Below are positions 7,373 through 14,804 of a DNA stretch of 33,641 nucleotides, in pieces (within the stretch, counting starts at the first letter, position 1; the number at the start of each line of letters is the position of its first letter). This stretch comes from Candidatus Portnoyibacteriota bacterium (GTDB taxonomy: Bacteria; Patescibacteriota; Minisyncoccia; Portnoybacterales; GWB1-42-6), in assembly GCA_016208745.1 (NCBI GenBank), contig JACQXN010000024.1, positions 1-33,641 on the forward strand, in the 5' to 3' direction. Made by a program: the position numbers and the translations under genes. Under the pieces are notes generated by a model. That model was not told where the DNA came from. It saw only the letters and a list, made by a program, of their open reading frames with translations, and made no database searches.

Positions 7373-8053
7373 ATGACAAACAGAGAATTAGTTGAAAGTT
7401 TGATTCGAGGCGGGTATCTTAAGTCGCCCCAGATTATTAAGGCTTTCAAAAAAATAGACCGGGCGGATTTTGTGCCAGAAGATTCAAGGCACGAGGCTTA
7501 TATCAACGCGCCTTTGCCGATTGGCCAAGGCCAGACAATTTCCCAGCCCTTAACCGTTGCTTTTATGATGGAGCTTTTGGAGCCAGAAGCAGGAAATATA
7601 ATTTTGGATATTGGTTCTGGCTCTGGCTGGCAGACAGCGATTTTAGCCGAAATTGTTGGCAAAAAAGGAAAAGTCTTTGGGATTGAGAGAATTCCAAAAT
7701 TAACGGAAATTGGAAAAAATAATATAGAGAGATATAAATTTATTAGTTCTGGCCGGGTAGAAATTTTTGAAGGTGATGGAACGCTCGGCTTGCCGGACAA
7801 AGCGCCTTTTGATAGAATTATTGCGGCGGCTTCAGGCGAGAAAATTATTGAAGCCTGGAAAAAGCAATTAAAAATCAACGGGAGAGTTGTGGCGCCGATT
7901 GAAAATAGCATCTTTCTTTTGGTTAAAAAAGCGGAGAATGAGTTTGAAGAAAAGGAATATCCGGGCTTTGCTTTTGTTCCATTGATTTCTGACAAAGATA
8001 AAGAAATTCCTGAATGGCGGAAGCATTTTATGAAACCCAATGAATCCCGTTAG
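7373..8053 (+). CDS. pcm: protein-L-isoaspartate O-methyltransferase
   Basis: RADFVPEDSRHEAYINAPLPIGQGQTISQPLTVAFMMELLEP, ILDIGSGSGWQTAILA, VFGIERI. Confidence 0.93.
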   Translation: MTNRELVESLIRGGYLKSPQIIKAFKKIDRADFVPEDSRHEAYINAPLPIGQGQTISQPLTVAFMMELLEPEAGNIILDIGSGSGWQTAILAEIVGKKGKVFGIERIPKLTEIGKNNIERYKFISSGRVEIFEGDGTLGLPDKAPFDRIIAAASGEKIIEAWKKQLKINGRVVAPIENSIFLLVKKAENEFEEKEYPGFAFVPLISDKDKEIPEWRKHFMKPNESR

Positions 8054-8162
8054 AAATCGCGGACGCCCAATCTCAATATAAAGCACATGAAAGGTCAAAA
8101 GATTATCAACAGCACAACAGAGCGCAGAATATTTCTTAATTCCGCGCCATATTTCTAGCGGG

Positions 8163-9188
8163 ATGAAAACATTTAAAATTATTATTTTTATCGTTATTTT
8201 TTTTGTTCTAATTTCCGCCGCTATTGCCGGCTTTATTTTTTATGGATTATTTGAGTTTTATATGCCCGTTGCGGCGGGCGAGGGAGAGGCAAAAATGATT
8301 GAGGCTCAAAAAGGGCAGGGTGTTAAAGAAATCGCGGCCGAGCTTGAAGAACAAAAATTAATCAGAAGCGCCTTTTGGTTTGAAACATATGTTTGGCTTT
8401 CGGGAAAACAAAATAAGCTTCAGGCAGGCAAATATTCTATCAGCTCATCTATGAACATGGCGCAGATTATAGATTTAATATCCGGCGGCAAAGTTGCAGA
8501 GAATGATATCTGGGTGACGATTCCTGAGGGTTTTACTTTAAAGCAAATAAAAACGCGGCTAAGCGAGAGCGGCTTAAGCGTGGCTCAGGATATTGACAAT
8601 AAGAATGCCGTTGATTTAAAATCCCAGTATCAATTTTTAGCTGACGCGCCTTCTGGGGCTAATCTGGAAGGCTTTCTTTTCCCCGATACTTATAAATTTG
8701 ATAAGGACTCAAGCCAGAATGAAATTATTTTAAAGATGCTTGATAATTTTGATAGAAAGCTGACCGATAAAATGCGGGTTGATATTGCCTCGCAAGAAAA
8801 AAGCGTTTTTGAGATTATAATAATGGCTAGCATTTTAGAAAAAGAAGTCAGAGGCGAGGATAGAAAAATAGCTTCGGGAATTTTTTGGAAAAGAATCAGC
8901 GATAATTATTCGCTTGAATCTGACGCGACATTAAGCTATATTTTTGATGATAAGATTGATCGTCATACAATAGAGCAAACAAAAGTTGATTCGCCATATA
9001 ATACCTATAAATACAAGGGTTTGCCAGCCGGGCCGATTAATAATCCCGGCATTGAAGCGATTGAAGCGGCAATTTATCCGCAGGAATCTGATTATTATTT
9101 CTTTTTGACCAAATCAGATACAGGCGAGGCGGTGTTTAGCAAGACTTTACAGGAACATAATCAGAATAAGGTGAAGTATCTAAAATAA
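8163..9188 (+). CDS. mltG: endolytic transglycosylase MltG (YceG-like)
   Basis: N-terminal TM, IPEGFTLKQI, EGFLFPDTYKF, IIMASILEKEVRG, SPYNTYKYKGLPAGPINNPG. Confidence 0.93.
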   Translation: MKTFKIIIFIVIFFVLISAAIAGFIFYGLFEFYMPVAAGEGEAKMIEAQKGQGVKEIAAELEEQKLIRSAFWFETYVWLSGKQNKLQAGKYSISSSMNMAQIIDLISGGKVAENDIWVTIPEGFTLKQIKTRLSESGLSVAQDIDNKNAVDLKSQYQFLADAPSGANLEGFLFPDTYKFDKDSSQNEIILKMLDNFDRKLTDKMRVDIASQEKSVFEIIIMASILEKEVRGEDRKIASGIFWKRISDNYSLESDATLSYIFDDKIDRHTIEQTKVDSPYNTYKYKGLPAGPINNPGIEAIEAAIYPQESDYYFFLTKSDTGEAVFSKTLQEHNQNKVKYLK

Positions 9189-9194
9189 TTTTTT

Positions 9195-9378
9195 CTTAAC
9201 CTACTTTTTGTGCCGACAAAAAGTAGGCAAAAAACTCTCGCCAAGCGTCAAAAATAAAGAAAATCAGGCTCGGCTCACGTAAAAGTTGCTATGCCCAACG
9301 CTTCGCGTTGACGACCACATCACGCATACTTTTACCTTCGCCTCGCCTCGATTTTCTAGTTATTTTTGCGCTATGGCG
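9195..9378. repeat. long structured palindromic element, copy 1
   Basis: Head hairpin CTACTTTTTGTgccgACAAAAAGTAG, then long imperfect arms aaaaataaagaaaatcaggc...gtaaaagt / acttttac...gattttctagttattttt. The head is shared with 29876-30103. Confidence 0.7.
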
Positions 9379-9455
9379 AAGCGAAAAATTAGAATACGTA
9401 CTCCGATGTTCTTTAAGCCGAGGGAAGTTATTATACCAAAGTAAAGGGAGGATCT

Positions 9456-9638
9456 ATGAAAAAAGGAAGTTTTACTAGTCGAGTTGTTAATGGGAAAGAA
9501 AAGAGAGTTAGGCCAGTGAATGTTACTATAAGGAAGCAAAAAAGATTTGGCCGAGAAGAAAAGGGTATTCCGCCAATATTGGCAGCTCGTCAAACGATCG
9601 TTGGCGCCGAACTTGATTTTCAGGAAACCATTAGGTAG
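9456..9638 (+). CDS. small basic hypothetical protein (60 aa)
   Basis: ORF with aaagggagg SD; followed by a terminator at 9671-9697. Confidence 0.55.
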   Translation: MKKGSFTSRVVNGKEKRVRPVNVTIRKQKRFGREEKGIPPILAARQTIVGAELDFQETIR

Positions 9639-9670
9639 TCGCCTCTGCATCTAGAAAATAGAATTTTCCA

Positions 9671-9697
9671 AGCGGGACTAAAATCCCGCTTTTTTAT
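9671..9697 (+). terminator. Rho-independent terminator
   Basis: AGCGGGActaaaaTCCCGCTttttt. Confidence 0.8.
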
Positions 9698-9726
9698 TTG
9701 ACTGGATTTTTTATGGGGTATAGAAT
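9698..9726 (+). promoter_or_regulatory. sigma70-type promoter upstream of the Gam-like gene
   Basis: TTGACT (9698-9703), 17-nt spacer, TAGAAT (9721-9726). Confidence 0.65.
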
Positions 9727-9776
9727 AGCCTATCAGGTCAAAATAACAAAAAAGCTCTTTTTATAGGGGGTAAAAT

Positions 9777-10393
9777 ATGGCAAAAAGTGAGAAGAAGAAA
9801 GAAAAGAAAGTATTGGTGCCTGTGCCAAAGGATTTAAACGAGGCAGGCGAGTTTATGCGGCGTATTTACAGCGCGCAAGCTCATATAGATTGGCTTAAAA
9901 CTGATATGGGCGCCGAAAGATTAAAAATTGGGGCAGAAAAACTGAAAATGCGGCAGAATTTGATGAAAAACTTATTGAGCTAGAAGCTAAAGAAGCGGAG
10001 GCGACTGAGCCTTTTGAGAGAGAAATTGAGATAAACGTGGAAGGACTTTTCGTTTTTGCCGAAGCAAATAAGATGGAATTAACCAGAGAGGGAAAGACAA
10101 AGACCGTTAAACTTCCAAATGGAACATTGAGCTGGTATTCTCCGTCGCCATCAGTCTCCGTTGAAAATCCAGAAAAAGTCATTGCCGCTCTAGAGGCGCT
10201 GGGACTGGACAGGTTTGTTAGGATAAAAAAGGAAGTTGACAAAGAGGCGGTTAAGAAGGAGCCAGAGATTGCTGAGCAGATTCAAGGGCTAAGCATAAAG
10301 CCGAAAAAAGATGAATTTATTATTAGCCCGGCTAATCTTGGAATATCGTTTTCTGCCTCCGGCCGGAAAAAATTCAAGAGGGTCGCGGCATAA
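9777..10393 (+). pseudogene. Mu Gam-like host-nuclease inhibitor, split by a -1 frameshift (9777-9983 / about 9960-10393)
   Basis: Second frame VEGLFVFAEANKMELTREGKTKTVKLPNGTLSWYSPSPSVSVENPEKVIAALEALGLDRFVRIKKEVDKEAVKKEPEIAEQIQGLSI follows the Mu Gam pattern (EANRDELT.GGK.KT..L.TG..SWR..PPSVSI...GL.RFIR.K.E.NKEA). First frame supplies the N-terminus. Confidence 0.7.
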
Positions 10394-10425
10394 AAAATTG
10401 CCGTAAGATCTATTTGCCAAAAACA

Positions 10426-10450
10426 AATCCGCTCATTTGGGCGGATTTTT
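10426..10450 (+). terminator. Rho-independent terminator after the Gam-like gene
   Basis: AATCCGCtcatttggGCGGATTttttt. Confidence 0.8.
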
Positions 10451-10586
10451 TGTATTCTGGACACGCCGGCTTTTGTATAGTAAAATATTATATTCGTGTC
10501 TATCGGCGCGATCCGTCCTTTAAAAATAAAAGATAGGCAAAAAGATTTTTATCATTATCGATAACACAGATAAAGCGAGGTGAAAA

Positions 10587-11681
10587 ATGGTCGGGAAAAT
10601 TTGGAGCAGAGAGAAAATAATTCAGATGATTCGGGATCTTTATAAAAAGGGTGAATTTCTTGATATGACCTCAGCCTCTCGCAAATATTCAACATTGTAT
10701 TTGGCATCCAATAAATATTTCCGTATGGGATGGCAAAAAGTCGTGGAATTAGCGGGGATTGATATTCGGGATATTCGCAAACAGAAAGGATGGAGCAGGC
10801 CGAATATAATTGAGCAGCTTCGCATTCTATATCAACAAGGAAAATCTTTGCGATCTTATCATAATGTGCGTTTGGCTGATGCGGCAAGAAAATATTTCGG
10901 TAGTTATGCCAAGGCTCTAGATGCGGCGGGGCTGCCTTATGAAAAAATTGGTTTGCGCCGTCCGAGTCCAAGGGAGAGCTGGGGAAGGGAAAAAGTTATT
11001 CAGACTATTCAGGAATTACATAAAAAGGGCGAACCTCTCAATCAGGCGTATGTAACACGCAAATACCCGAAATTGCGCGGTGTTGCGCATTTCTATTTTG
11101 AGAGAAGCTGGAGAAAAGCAATAGAAGCGGCCGGGTTTGATTATGACAAAGATATAAAGAAAGAATATTTGCTTGCAACAGTGAGAATTGAGAAATGGAC
11201 CAAGGATGAAATCGTAAATCAATTAAAGCTTTTGTATTCAGAAGGAAAGTCGCTGAGACCGAGTTTGAACAAGCGATTATTTGCTGCTGCTAAAAGACAT
11301 TTTGGTAGCTATGAAGACGCCATATCAGCGACGGGCTTATCTTATCAGGAACTAGGCATTCGTTGCAGTAAGCCGTTAGAGAAATGGAATAAAAAAGAGA
11401 TAGCAAGGGAACTTCAGAGGCGTTTCAGCGAAGGCATGCCTTTAAATGCCGGCGAGATGCGTAGTCACGCTAAAAATTTTTACGACGCGGCTCGTTTCTA
11501 TTTTGGCGATTATGCCGCTGCTCTAAAGGCAGCGGGGATAGATCCAAAAAGTCTGCGTAAGGCGCGAGGTCTAAGGGAATGGATTTTGAGCCTGACACCA
11601 AAAGATATGGAAAGAATAGAAGAGCAAATCTCATCACTAGGGAAAAGAAAGGAGAATAAGCATGAGAAAGCTAGCAACTAG
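10587..11681 (+). CDS. protein of five tandem ~65-aa repeats resembling homing-endonuclease-associated repeats (HNH_repeat/HEAR type), no nuclease domain seen
   Basis: Five units starting W-S/G/T/N-x-x-x-I/V with internal G.S/P and (F)GSY..A(L)..AGL: WSREKIIQMIRDLYKKGE..., WSRPNIIEQLRILYQQGK...KYFGSYAKALDAAGL, WGREKVIQTIQELHKKGE..., WTKDEIVNQLKLLYSEGK...RHFGSYEDAISATGL, WNKKEIARELQRRFSEGM...FYFGDYAAALKAAGI. Confidence 0.65.
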   Translation: MVGKIWSREKIIQMIRDLYKKGEFLDMTSASRKYSTLYLASNKYFRMGWQKVVELAGIDIRDIRKQKGWSRPNIIEQLRILYQQGKSLRSYHNVRLADAARKYFGSYAKALDAAGLPYEKIGLRRPSPRESWGREKVIQTIQELHKKGEPLNQAYVTRKYPKLRGVAHFYFERSWRKAIEAAGFDYDKDIKKEYLLATVRIEKWTKDEIVNQLKLLYSEGKSLRPSLNKRLFAAAKRHFGSYEDAISATGLSYQELGIRCSKPLEKWNKKEIARELQRRFSEGMPLNAGEMRSHAKNFYDAARFYFGDYAAALKAAGIDPKSLRKARGLREWILSLTPKDMERIEEQISSLGKRKENKHEKASN

Positions 11682-12489
11682 TCAGCTTAAAGAATTGCCG
11701 ATTGCGGCGATTGAGATCGGCGATATGCAGCCCCGTAAATTTTTTGAAGAGCAATCCTTGATTGAACTTGCCTCTTCCTTGAAAGAGAAGGGGGCATTAC
11801 AACCGGTTGTAGTCAGGCCAAAAAACGGCGGGTATGAAGTAATTATGGGCGCCAGAAGATTAAAAGCCGCTCAGATTGCCCAGCTTAAAAAATATCCCGC
11901 CTTTGTTGTCCAGACATTAAACGATTCTGAGGCGCTGGAAATCGCGCTGACAGAAAATATGCAGCGTGAAGATTTGACTCCTTTTGAGGAGGCATGGGGC
12001 ATTCTTCGGCTGATGAAAGATTTTAATTATTCAGCGAAGGATGTCTGTAGCAAGCTCAATAAAAGCGATACATTCGTGCGCTCAAGAATTCAGCTTTTGC
12101 AGTTGCCAAAGGAGGTTCAGCAGAGTGTTTCCGAGGGCAAATTGTCAATGGCCGCGGCCACAAATTTAACTAAGCTGGATACTGCCGAAGAACAAGTCAA
12201 AGTGGCGGGCGATATTATTAGAACTTTACTTTCCAGGCAGCAAGCCAAAGAAAAGATTATTGAGCAAATTCAGCAGCCAAAGAAGAAAACTATTTCGCGG
12301 ACTGGTAGATCCATGGACGCTCTAAAGTACAACAAGACCATCTTTCAGATAAAAAGGTTGCAGGTATCTATGGGGGATATCAATCTTGAGGTATTGTCCT
12401 TGCCTGCTCGCGACGGGCTAAAAATCGAGCTCAATCAGTTGAAAGGGCGGATAACAGAGGTCATAAAAGAGATAGACGGAATGACCTAG
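11662..12489 (+). CDS. ParB/Spo0J-like partition protein
   Basis: [68 protein letters not shown]-like [29 protein letters not shown] aaaggag upstream. Confidence 0.88.
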
Positions 12490-12502
12490 AAACGGAGGGG
12501 CT

Positions 12503-14647
12503 ATGAACGCAGCTGTAAGATTTGGACCAGAGGAAGTAGGCGATTCAAGTCAGGGGCCCATAGTTGGTTTAGGCCTCTCGTTTGTTAAACTTTTCTCAGA
12601 CGGCATTGCCAAAGGTTTTGTCTCGCAAAAACAGATTATTGGCGCCTTGCCGTCTCAGGTCATAAAAAAGAGGAAAGCAATGGGAGAAATTTTGGATTGG
12701 CTTCTTGTCTGTTTTGAGCAGCTTGGCATACGAGTAGTTATAATAGAGGAAGCCGCAATATTAGCGGAGGGGAATAGTGAAACCGCCGAAGACAAAGGGA
12801 GCAGTTTATCATATTTGGAATTCATAACCGACCAGACGCATCGCGAGGTTCTGGATAAAGAGGATGGCATAGACCTTCTGCAATTATATCTGCAAGAAAT
12901 CAAAAAATTCCCTCTGCTAAGAGGAAAGAATGAGGAACGGGAACTATGCAGGCAAATTCAGGTTGGCAGCAAGGAGGCAAGAGAAAAATTCATCAATGCC
13001 AATCTTCGTTTCCCGGTCAATATTGCTCGTCGATACAGAGGCAGGGGGTTGGAGTACCTTGATTTGATTCAAGAGGGCAGTATCGGAGTTATTAATGCGC
13101 TGGATAAATTTGAATATCAGCGAGGCTTCAAATTTAGTACGTATGCTATCTGGTGGATAAAGCAGGCGATTATTCGGGCCATCTATGACTATAGCGAGAC
13201 AATCCGGGTGCCCGTGCATACGCGCGCATTGTGGAATAAAATTATGGCGGTATCAGAGAAAATTGTCCGTCAGACAGGCAAAGAACCCGGCGCTGGAGAG
13301 ATAGCGGAAAGGCTTTCGCTTCCTGAAGATGAAATTGGCAAGGCATTAAAGCAGATGCGTATGAGTACTGTCTACCTCGAAGATCTTATAACGCTCAACG
13401 ACGAGGGAGATGGAATCCAGGACAAGTCATGGGAAGAGGTGGTCTCTAACCCCAATTACGATGATCCAGAGATTTATCTTAGGGCCAAAGAGGAGTTAGA
13501 AGAGACGGAAAAGGATTTATCCAAAGTGGAGCGTGCCTTATCTGTCTTGCCGCCAAAATATTGGCGATACAGAATGATTTTCCGCGAAAGATTCGGATTA
13601 GACGGCACATACGCTATCAGGACATTGCAAGAAATTGGGAACCATTGCAATCTTACAAGAGAGCGGGTTCGGCAGCTTTTGGAAGGAACCTTCAAATTGC
13701 TTCAAGACCGCGGCATTTCTGTAACTTCGGATTTTTTTGAGGAGTCGATAGAAAAGTTTAATCGCTTGCGGGAATTTATTTCGGTTACAGGATGGGAAAG
13801 CGGCGGCTTAATCAAAGAAGGGGTTGTGGAAGGTAGAGAAAGCCGGCCCGAAGAAGATCTCACTGGCCAATCAGAACAGGAGGAGACGTCAGAGATGCTT
13901 GGTAATGGGCAGGAGTTGATTGCTAGTAATTATTTGGATATTGCAAGCATCGAGGCAAGAATCGGAGTAAAATTCAAGAATGCTAACCTGCTTGTTCAGG
14001 CGTTTGTTCATCGTTCTTTTCTCAATGAAGATCAAAATTTCCCATTTGATAACAATGAACGTTTAGAATTTCTAGGCGATGCGGCTTTGGAAATCGCAGT
14101 TAGCGACTATCTCTATAATAATTTTCCTCACGCAGAAGGCGTGATGACTACTTGGCGCTCCGCTTTGGTCAATACAAAAATGCTTGCGAAGGTGGCTTCG
14201 GAACTCGAGCTAGAAAAATACTTATTGATAGGCCGCGGTGATGTGATAGAGCGGGGAAGAAAAAGTCCGCAAAATAGCAAAGAGAGAATTTCAGCTTCTC
14301 TTTTGGAGGCCCTGATCGGCGCGATTCATTGCGATCTAGGCCTGGAAGCAGTATCGGATTTTATTCAAAGAAATATACTAGTGCACTTGCCGTCGATCTT
14401 GAAGGATGGTCGACAGAAAGATGCAAAAAGTGACTTTCAAGACAAGGCGCAGACTATGCTAGGCCTGACTCCTTATTACAAAATTCTGTCAGCATATGGC
14501 CCGGAGCATAACAGGCGTTTCAGGGTGGCTGCAATGCTCGGGGGCAAGATCATTGCAAGAGGGTTTGGCTTCTCAAGAAAAGAGGCCGAGATGGATGCGG
14601 CAGAAAAAGCGCTCAGCAAAAAGGAAATGTTCGTTAGCAAAAAATAA
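12503..14647 (+). CDS. fusion protein: primary-type sigma70 factor (regions 1.1-4) + RNase III + dsRBD
   Basis: Single 714-aa ORF. Region 1.1-like [18 protein letters not shown]...[10 protein letters not shown]; 1.2 [16 protein letters not shown]; 2 [61 protein letters not shown]; 3 [15 protein letters not shown]; 4 [19 protein letters not shown]. RNase [24 protein letters not shown]...[16 protein letters not shown]; ds[63 protein letters not shown]. Confidence 0.93.
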
Positions 14648-14659
14648 TAAAATTTCAAC

Positions 14660-14693
14660 AAGCTGGTTTTTTATAAAGAAGCCAGCTTTTTTA
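14660..14693 (+). terminator. Rho-independent terminator
   Basis: aAGCTGGttttttataaagaagCCAGCTtttttt. Confidence 0.75.
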
Positions 14694-14804
14694 ATTGCGT
14701 ATTTTACTTTTTATACTGGTTTGTTGTTATCGCGCGCGATTGGTGCATTGTATCATTATTGATACGATCGTGCGGGAATGATACAATCATAATTTCAAAA
14801 AAAC

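Follow-up and report, generated by a model that had tools for sequence, protein, structure and literature searches.

Domain matches, a coding-like linker and syntenic flanks support an in-frame fusion of a sigma factor with an RNase III in the window, the 33,641-nt stretch of DNA analysed here, as the initial annotation had claimed. From the sequence we conclude that this fusion is a real, coding joining of an extra sigma factor with an extra RNase III, known from a single assembly.

Reading frame, domains and linker of the fusion gene

The fusion gene forms one uninterrupted reading frame of 714 aa at 12503-14647, exactly as first annotated. It begins with an ATG behind a strong Shine-Dalgarno (SD) site and continues for 2.1 kb without a stop or frameshift. 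Its parts and its surroundings are the following.

9189..14700, no strand assigned: genome-specific insertion between mltG and rplJ (synteny in family relatives, GC)
10458..10486, plus strand: promoter-like site TGGACA-17-TAAAAT upstream of a three-gene operon (consensus match; near chance here)
10587..11681, plus strand: HNH-repeat (homing-endonuclease-associated repeat) protein, 364 aa, operon gene 1 (PF18780, 3.5e-13)
11662..12489, plus strand: ParB-like protein, 275 aa, operon gene 2 (ParB_N, 5.4e-26; HTH_ParB, 1.2e-19)
12503..14647, plus strand: sigma-70/RNase III fusion gene, 714 aa (reading frame, Pfam and NCBIfam domain matches)
12587..12772, plus strand: region 1.1-like, aa 29-90 (PF03979, 0.0013; under the cut-off, 19.1 vs 22.5 bits)
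12872..12970, plus strand: sigma region 1.2, aa 124-156 (PF00140, Sigma70_r1_2, 3.9e-6)
12992..13183, plus strand: sigma region 2, aa 164-227 (PF04542, Sigma70_r2, 7.4e-19)
13229..13360, plus strand: sigma region 3, aa 243-286 (PF04539, Sigma70_r3, 2.5e-8)
13538..13702, plus strand: sigma region 4, aa 346-400 (PF04545, Sigma70_r4, 8.8e-8)
13796..13933, plus strand: linker, ~aa 432-477, hydrophilic, acidic, coding-like in frame (coding score; unfused sigmas end here)
13878..13897, plus strand: possible internal start, AGGAGG and in-frame ATG (M465) (strongest SD among in-frame starts)
13943..14383, plus strand: RNase III catalytic domain, aa 481-627 (Ribonucleas_3_3, 4.9e-33; Ribonuclease_3, 6.7e-22)
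14423..14620, plus strand: dsRNA-binding domain (dsRBD), aa 641-706 (PF00035, dsrm, 1.7e-11; 44.9 vs 23 bits)
14660..14688, plus strand: terminator-like hairpin 3' of the fusion gene (sequence)

The sigma half belongs to the sigma-70 family, with regions 2, 3 and 4 in order and above the Pfam cut-offs. Of the annotated sigma regions, 1.2, 2, 3 and 4 all exceed their cut-offs; region 1.1 lies at the right position and falls below its own, and phylum sigmas align with the fusion from aa 29-30 onward. Alignment with the genome's own SigA locates the -10 melting motif [11 protein letters not shown] in region 2 and the -35 recognition helix TRERVRQL in region 4. In the C-terminal half, the described succession of an RNase III catalytic domain and a dsRBD holds in Pfam and NCBIfam; the catalytic domain, the dsRBD and the RNaseIII equivalog TIGR02191 (199.1 vs 166.25 bits, aa 484-706) place this half in the RNase III (Rnc) family by its domains. 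Solved-structure matches led from the first half to RpoD/SigA and from the second to RNase III/Drosha. The predicted structure of the RNase III half (pLDDT 83.4, pTM 0.65) has as its best PDB match the RNase III 1o0w (E 3.1e-16); a single-sequence AlphaFold model of the full-length fusion was of no use (pLDDT 38.7).

The linker comprises about 45 aa and is shorter than the ~60 aa first estimated, with sigma-like sequence extending to ~aa 430 as in unfused relatives. Residues ~403-430 correspond to a C-terminal stretch also found in the sigmas of G095 and G117, two genomes of another family in the same class, and since those sigmas end after this stretch, the fusion point lies at ~aa 432. Within the linker, 90 nt (13805-13894, GC 0.52) have an in-frame coding score of 16.1 bits (reference: coding mean 7.9, sd 4.3; noncoding mean -16.5, sd 9.4), a value reached by 0 of 1090 noncoding windows. 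This makes it unlikely that the linker arose from a lost stop with a former spacer behind it, or from a sequencing error. The assembly is a single draft of 29 contigs, and an assembly or binning artefact that joined two genes must be weighed. We regard it as very improbable, given that the join is in frame through coding-like sequence, that the mltG and rplJ flanks fit the gene order of family relatives, that the upstream genes form an operon also present in G095 and G117, and that the RNase III half shares only 51% identity with the rnc found elsewhere in the genome.

Directly at the edge of the RNase III module, an AGGAGG precedes an in-frame ATG (13895, M465) at a spacing of 10 and is the strongest SD among the in-frame starts. 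This favours a two-product gene, partly a co-expression device and close to the polyprotein suggested in the initial annotation, which would yield the full-length fusion together with a free RNase III of ~250 aa, either from M465 or by proteolysis of the linker, which is hydrophilic and likely protease-accessible. We consider such an arrangement improbable: an equally strong SD arose in 258 of 1000 synonymous shuffles (~26%) because of the Gln-Glu-Glu codons, and the linker scores as coding, which would not be expected of a leftover intergenic spacer. The SD at M465 is strong, yet within chance, and the internal start serves as a lead only.

An alternative sigma factor in an island operon

In the genome (859 kb, 29 contigs, 97.8% complete), a canonical sigA lies on contig C13, immediately following a DnaG-like primase gene, and contig C4 has a standard rnc beside a NusB-like gene (both neighbours named by eye from sequence). 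The check for separate rpoD/sigA and rnc genes suggested in the initial annotation thus found both, the sigA being intact, and the fusion is therefore an extra copy of each. Identity of the fused halves to these genes is 51% for RNase III against rnc and 40% for sigma against sigA. A recent duplication of the genome's own rnc was set aside: in the tree the fused RNase III stands on a long branch, and its grouping in a clade with the family rncs was neither rejected (p-AU 0.279) nor shown. The label of primary sigma given at first is wrong: a separate dnaG-linked sigA is present, no RpoD equivalog model was passed (170-223 bits against NCBIfam cut-offs of 354-572), and the fusion lies in an island operon. 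The fused sigma is an alternative, island-borne sigma-70-type factor and not the organism's primary sigma.

In this genome ~5.4 kb lie between mltG (8163-9188) and rplJ (from ~15119), two genes that adjoin each other in the family relatives G004, G005, G007 and G008 and are separated by two unrelated genes in G001. The GC content of the island is 0.41-0.457 vs 0.38-0.40 in the flanks. It holds, in order, a 60-aa ORF (9456-9638), a Gam-like gene, the HNH-repeat protein, the ParB-like protein and the fusion; the last three form an operon whose genes overlap or stand within 14 nt, the fusion gene being the last. The Mu Gam-like (host nuclease inhibitor) gene, at ~9777-10393, is frameshifted near 9950, and the island may consequently be decaying.

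A search of 384 genomes across the class, with the HNH-repeat protein as query, found G095 and G117, in which HNH-repeat, ParB and sigma genes follow one another in the same tight order as in the window (loci L250 and L251), overlapping or a few bases apart at all three loci. Identity to the window proteins is 33% (G095) and 30% (G117) for the HNH-repeat homologues, which occupy the same operon place, 35-36% for ParB and 28-29% for sigma. The two sigmas have 423 and 419 aa and end without RNase III; they group with the fused sigma in the tree with a support of 83/43, which is not decisive. As the operon is unfused in these genomes, an island-borne alternative sigma appears to have gained RNase III at its C-terminus.

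The ParB of the operon is an extra copy, the chromosomal ParB being encoded next to ParA on contig C11. The canonical ParB motif is GERRxRA; at this site the operon ParB-like proteins (window 11662-12489, L250:7981-8799, L251:3856-4692) have GARRLKA, GSRRVKA or GSRRVYA, and no ParA gene stands beside their genes at these three loci.

In this phylum, sigma factors are repeatedly associated with HNH repeats, and no paper combining the two was found in the open literature. A 1033-aa frame in G418 (L274:6787-9885, contig C18) comprises sigma-70 regions 1.2-4, an SF2 (ResIII/DEAD) helicase and four HNH repeats. The two-gene form of this protein occurs in G453 (L268:5237-7642, 7790-9316, contig C2), where a helicase and HNH-repeat gene directly precedes a separate sigma gene. 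A 510-aa frame in G547 (L267:7374-8903, contig C39) has HNH repeats and, in its second half, a match to sigma region 3.

Rarity of the fusion and conservation of its RNase III

Searches with either the whole protein or its RNase III half covered 9 genomes of the family, 23 of the order, 384 of the class and 380 of the phylum. No second fusion occurred among the best ~165 matches listed per search (732 different genomes of the phylum), where a close relative would rank top and a distant fusion might be missed. A GTDB-wide pattern scan gave matches to the sigma half only and no second fusion, and no record of a viral contig, phage or plasmid had both halves. Scans of viral contigs by ParB or sigma alignment gave none, and the HNH-repeat scan gave only stand-alone HNH-repeat proteins. 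A phage or plasmid origin was rejected, as no record covers both halves and the viral RNase IIIs found are unfused. The initial remark that no such fusion had been described agrees with the open literature, in which no paper on a sigma-RNase III fusion was found. The combination was found nowhere else and is a private addition in one genome. Two separate genes in all relatives had been named beforehand as a point against the fusion; this arrangement was largely seen, and we read it as marking a private addition, which does not make the fusion an error. Matches from G688, G546, G488, G452, G422, G519 and G433 extended into the linker with a single internal stop. In the regions examined, no sigma adjoins rnc; these extensions are therefore attributed to chance, and adjacency of sigma and rnc was rejected as the source of the fusion.

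The fused RNase III keeps E519, E522, D526, E545 and E602, and has S599 at the site of E. coli D114. In E. coli numbering, the equivalents of E38, E41, D45, E65, E117, D126 and Q165 are kept, E100 is replaced by Asp and D114 by Ser, so that three of the four catalytic carboxylates (E41, D45, D114, E117) are retained. The D114 site is one of the catalytic positions and has been described as highly conserved among bacteria. Among phylum RNase IIIs (standalone enzymes) it is Asn in 66/69 and Asp in 3/69, and losing that acid is thus normal in the phylum. Of the catalytic acids, D114 alone makes no direct contact with Mg in the post-cleavage structure of the E. coli enzyme (PMC9291653). The Mg-ligating acids E41, D45 and E117 are all kept in the fused enzyme. 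Compared with 69 phylum RNase IIIs, it retains 51 of the 60 columns conserved at >=95%, most losses being conservative, and shows the majority residue at only 9 of 54 variable columns. This pattern of kept conserved columns and differing variable ones points to long divergence under purifying selection on the RNase III half. The fused RNase III is likely active; its activity may be lowered, considering the Ser at the D114 site and the Asp at the E100 site.

These observations bear on whether the gene could be a chimera of the island without a selected joint function, in which one half works and the other is a passenger, perhaps decaying. Both halves lie on long branches in their trees, which makes relaxed constraint in parts possible; the fusion is a singleton among the matches listed for the ~730 phylum genomes searched, the D114-equivalent residue is Ser, and the neighbouring Gam-like gene is frameshifted. 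The RNase III half, however, retains conserved positions far more than variable ones, the -10 and -35 recognition motifs of the sigma half are intact, and 2.1 kb have remained free of stops and frameshifts. We therefore judge a passenger chimera to be unlikely.

Proposed function and relation to known systems

Our preferred reading, to which we give about an even chance, is that an alternative, island-borne sigma factor carries a second, diverged RNase III after region 4 via a flexible linker of ~45 residues and acts at its own promoters. We propose a sequence of steps in which (i) the fusion would bind core RNA polymerase like other sigmas, at DNA probably marked or selected for its holoenzyme by the HNH-repeat and ParB-like proteins; (ii) region 4 at the beta-flap would, as the most likely mechanism, tether the RNase III beside the RNA exit channel; (iii) an RNase III dimer would form from two fusions, or as a heterodimer of a fusion and free RNase III; and (iv) this dimer would cut hairpins or sense-antisense duplexes arising from the sigma's own promoters, either before sigma is released or shortly afterwards. 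The beta-flap contacted by sigma region 4 helps to form the RNA exit channel, and RNA passes it on the way out (PMC2988021), so that a nuclease on a ~45-residue linker would hover beside the emerging RNA. That the nuclease is tethered to RNA polymerase, as the initial annotation suggested, is a plausible proposal and our leading mechanism. The need of RNase III for dimers counts against it, since a sigma-bound monomer must find a partner and two fusions, or a fusion and free RNase III, must meet; such an encounter would be favoured at divergent or convergent promoters, where duplex RNA is made. Sigma is also usually released early, which limits the time at the exit channel. Only tentatively do we go further and envisage a working enzyme, that is, an alternative holoenzyme with its own RNase III at the exit channel that would process or silence its own transcripts and possibly link two polymerases through the dimer.

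RNase III is known to cut transcripts during their synthesis. To our knowledge, there is no bacterial system in which this nuclease is covalently built into the polymerase that initiates transcription, and the fusion could bring an RNA-cutting enzyme to the point at which nascent RNA exits RNA polymerase. If it works, one protein would set both the transcription start site and RNA cutting, and whether tethering at initiation sets RNase III specificity becomes directly testable. The island operon of sigma, ParB-like and HNH-repeat proteins recurs, with differing additions, in small-genome bacteria.

Among NCBIfam sigma models, the best-scoring one for the fusion was MzaA of the MZA anti-phage system (aa 157-402, 228 bits, cut-off 800). 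The two have only the generic sigma core in common, no Mza-type neighbours were recognised at the fusion locus, and the three upstream island genes tested gave no match to Mza models; membership in the MZA system was rejected on score and neighbours. The sigma half resembles primary, group 1-2 sigma-70 factors (RpoD/SigA) in its ordered regions 1.2, 2, 3 and 4, its region 1.1-like N-terminus and its WWIKQ and TRERVRQ motifs. Unlike these, it is extra to a dnaG-linked sigA of ~40% identity, island-borne and extended by a C-terminal nuclease. The RNase III half shares with bacterial class I RNase III (Rnc) the single catalytic domain, the single dsRBD and the signature [10 protein letters not shown], scores above the cut-off of the NCBIfam equivalog and is 51% identical to the genome's own Rnc; in contrast to Rnc, it is placed behind a sigma factor, has Ser at the D114 site and contains a five-residue insertion ahead of the second metal motif. 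The operon of G095 and G117 matches that of the window in its three genes, their order and their tight spacing, whereas the sigma there stops after its C-terminal helix, without RNase III. Like the fusion, the G418 protein is a sigma factor with added C-terminal domains in one protein of the same phylum and with a link to HNH repeats, but it carries a helicase and DNA-binding repeats instead of an RNase.
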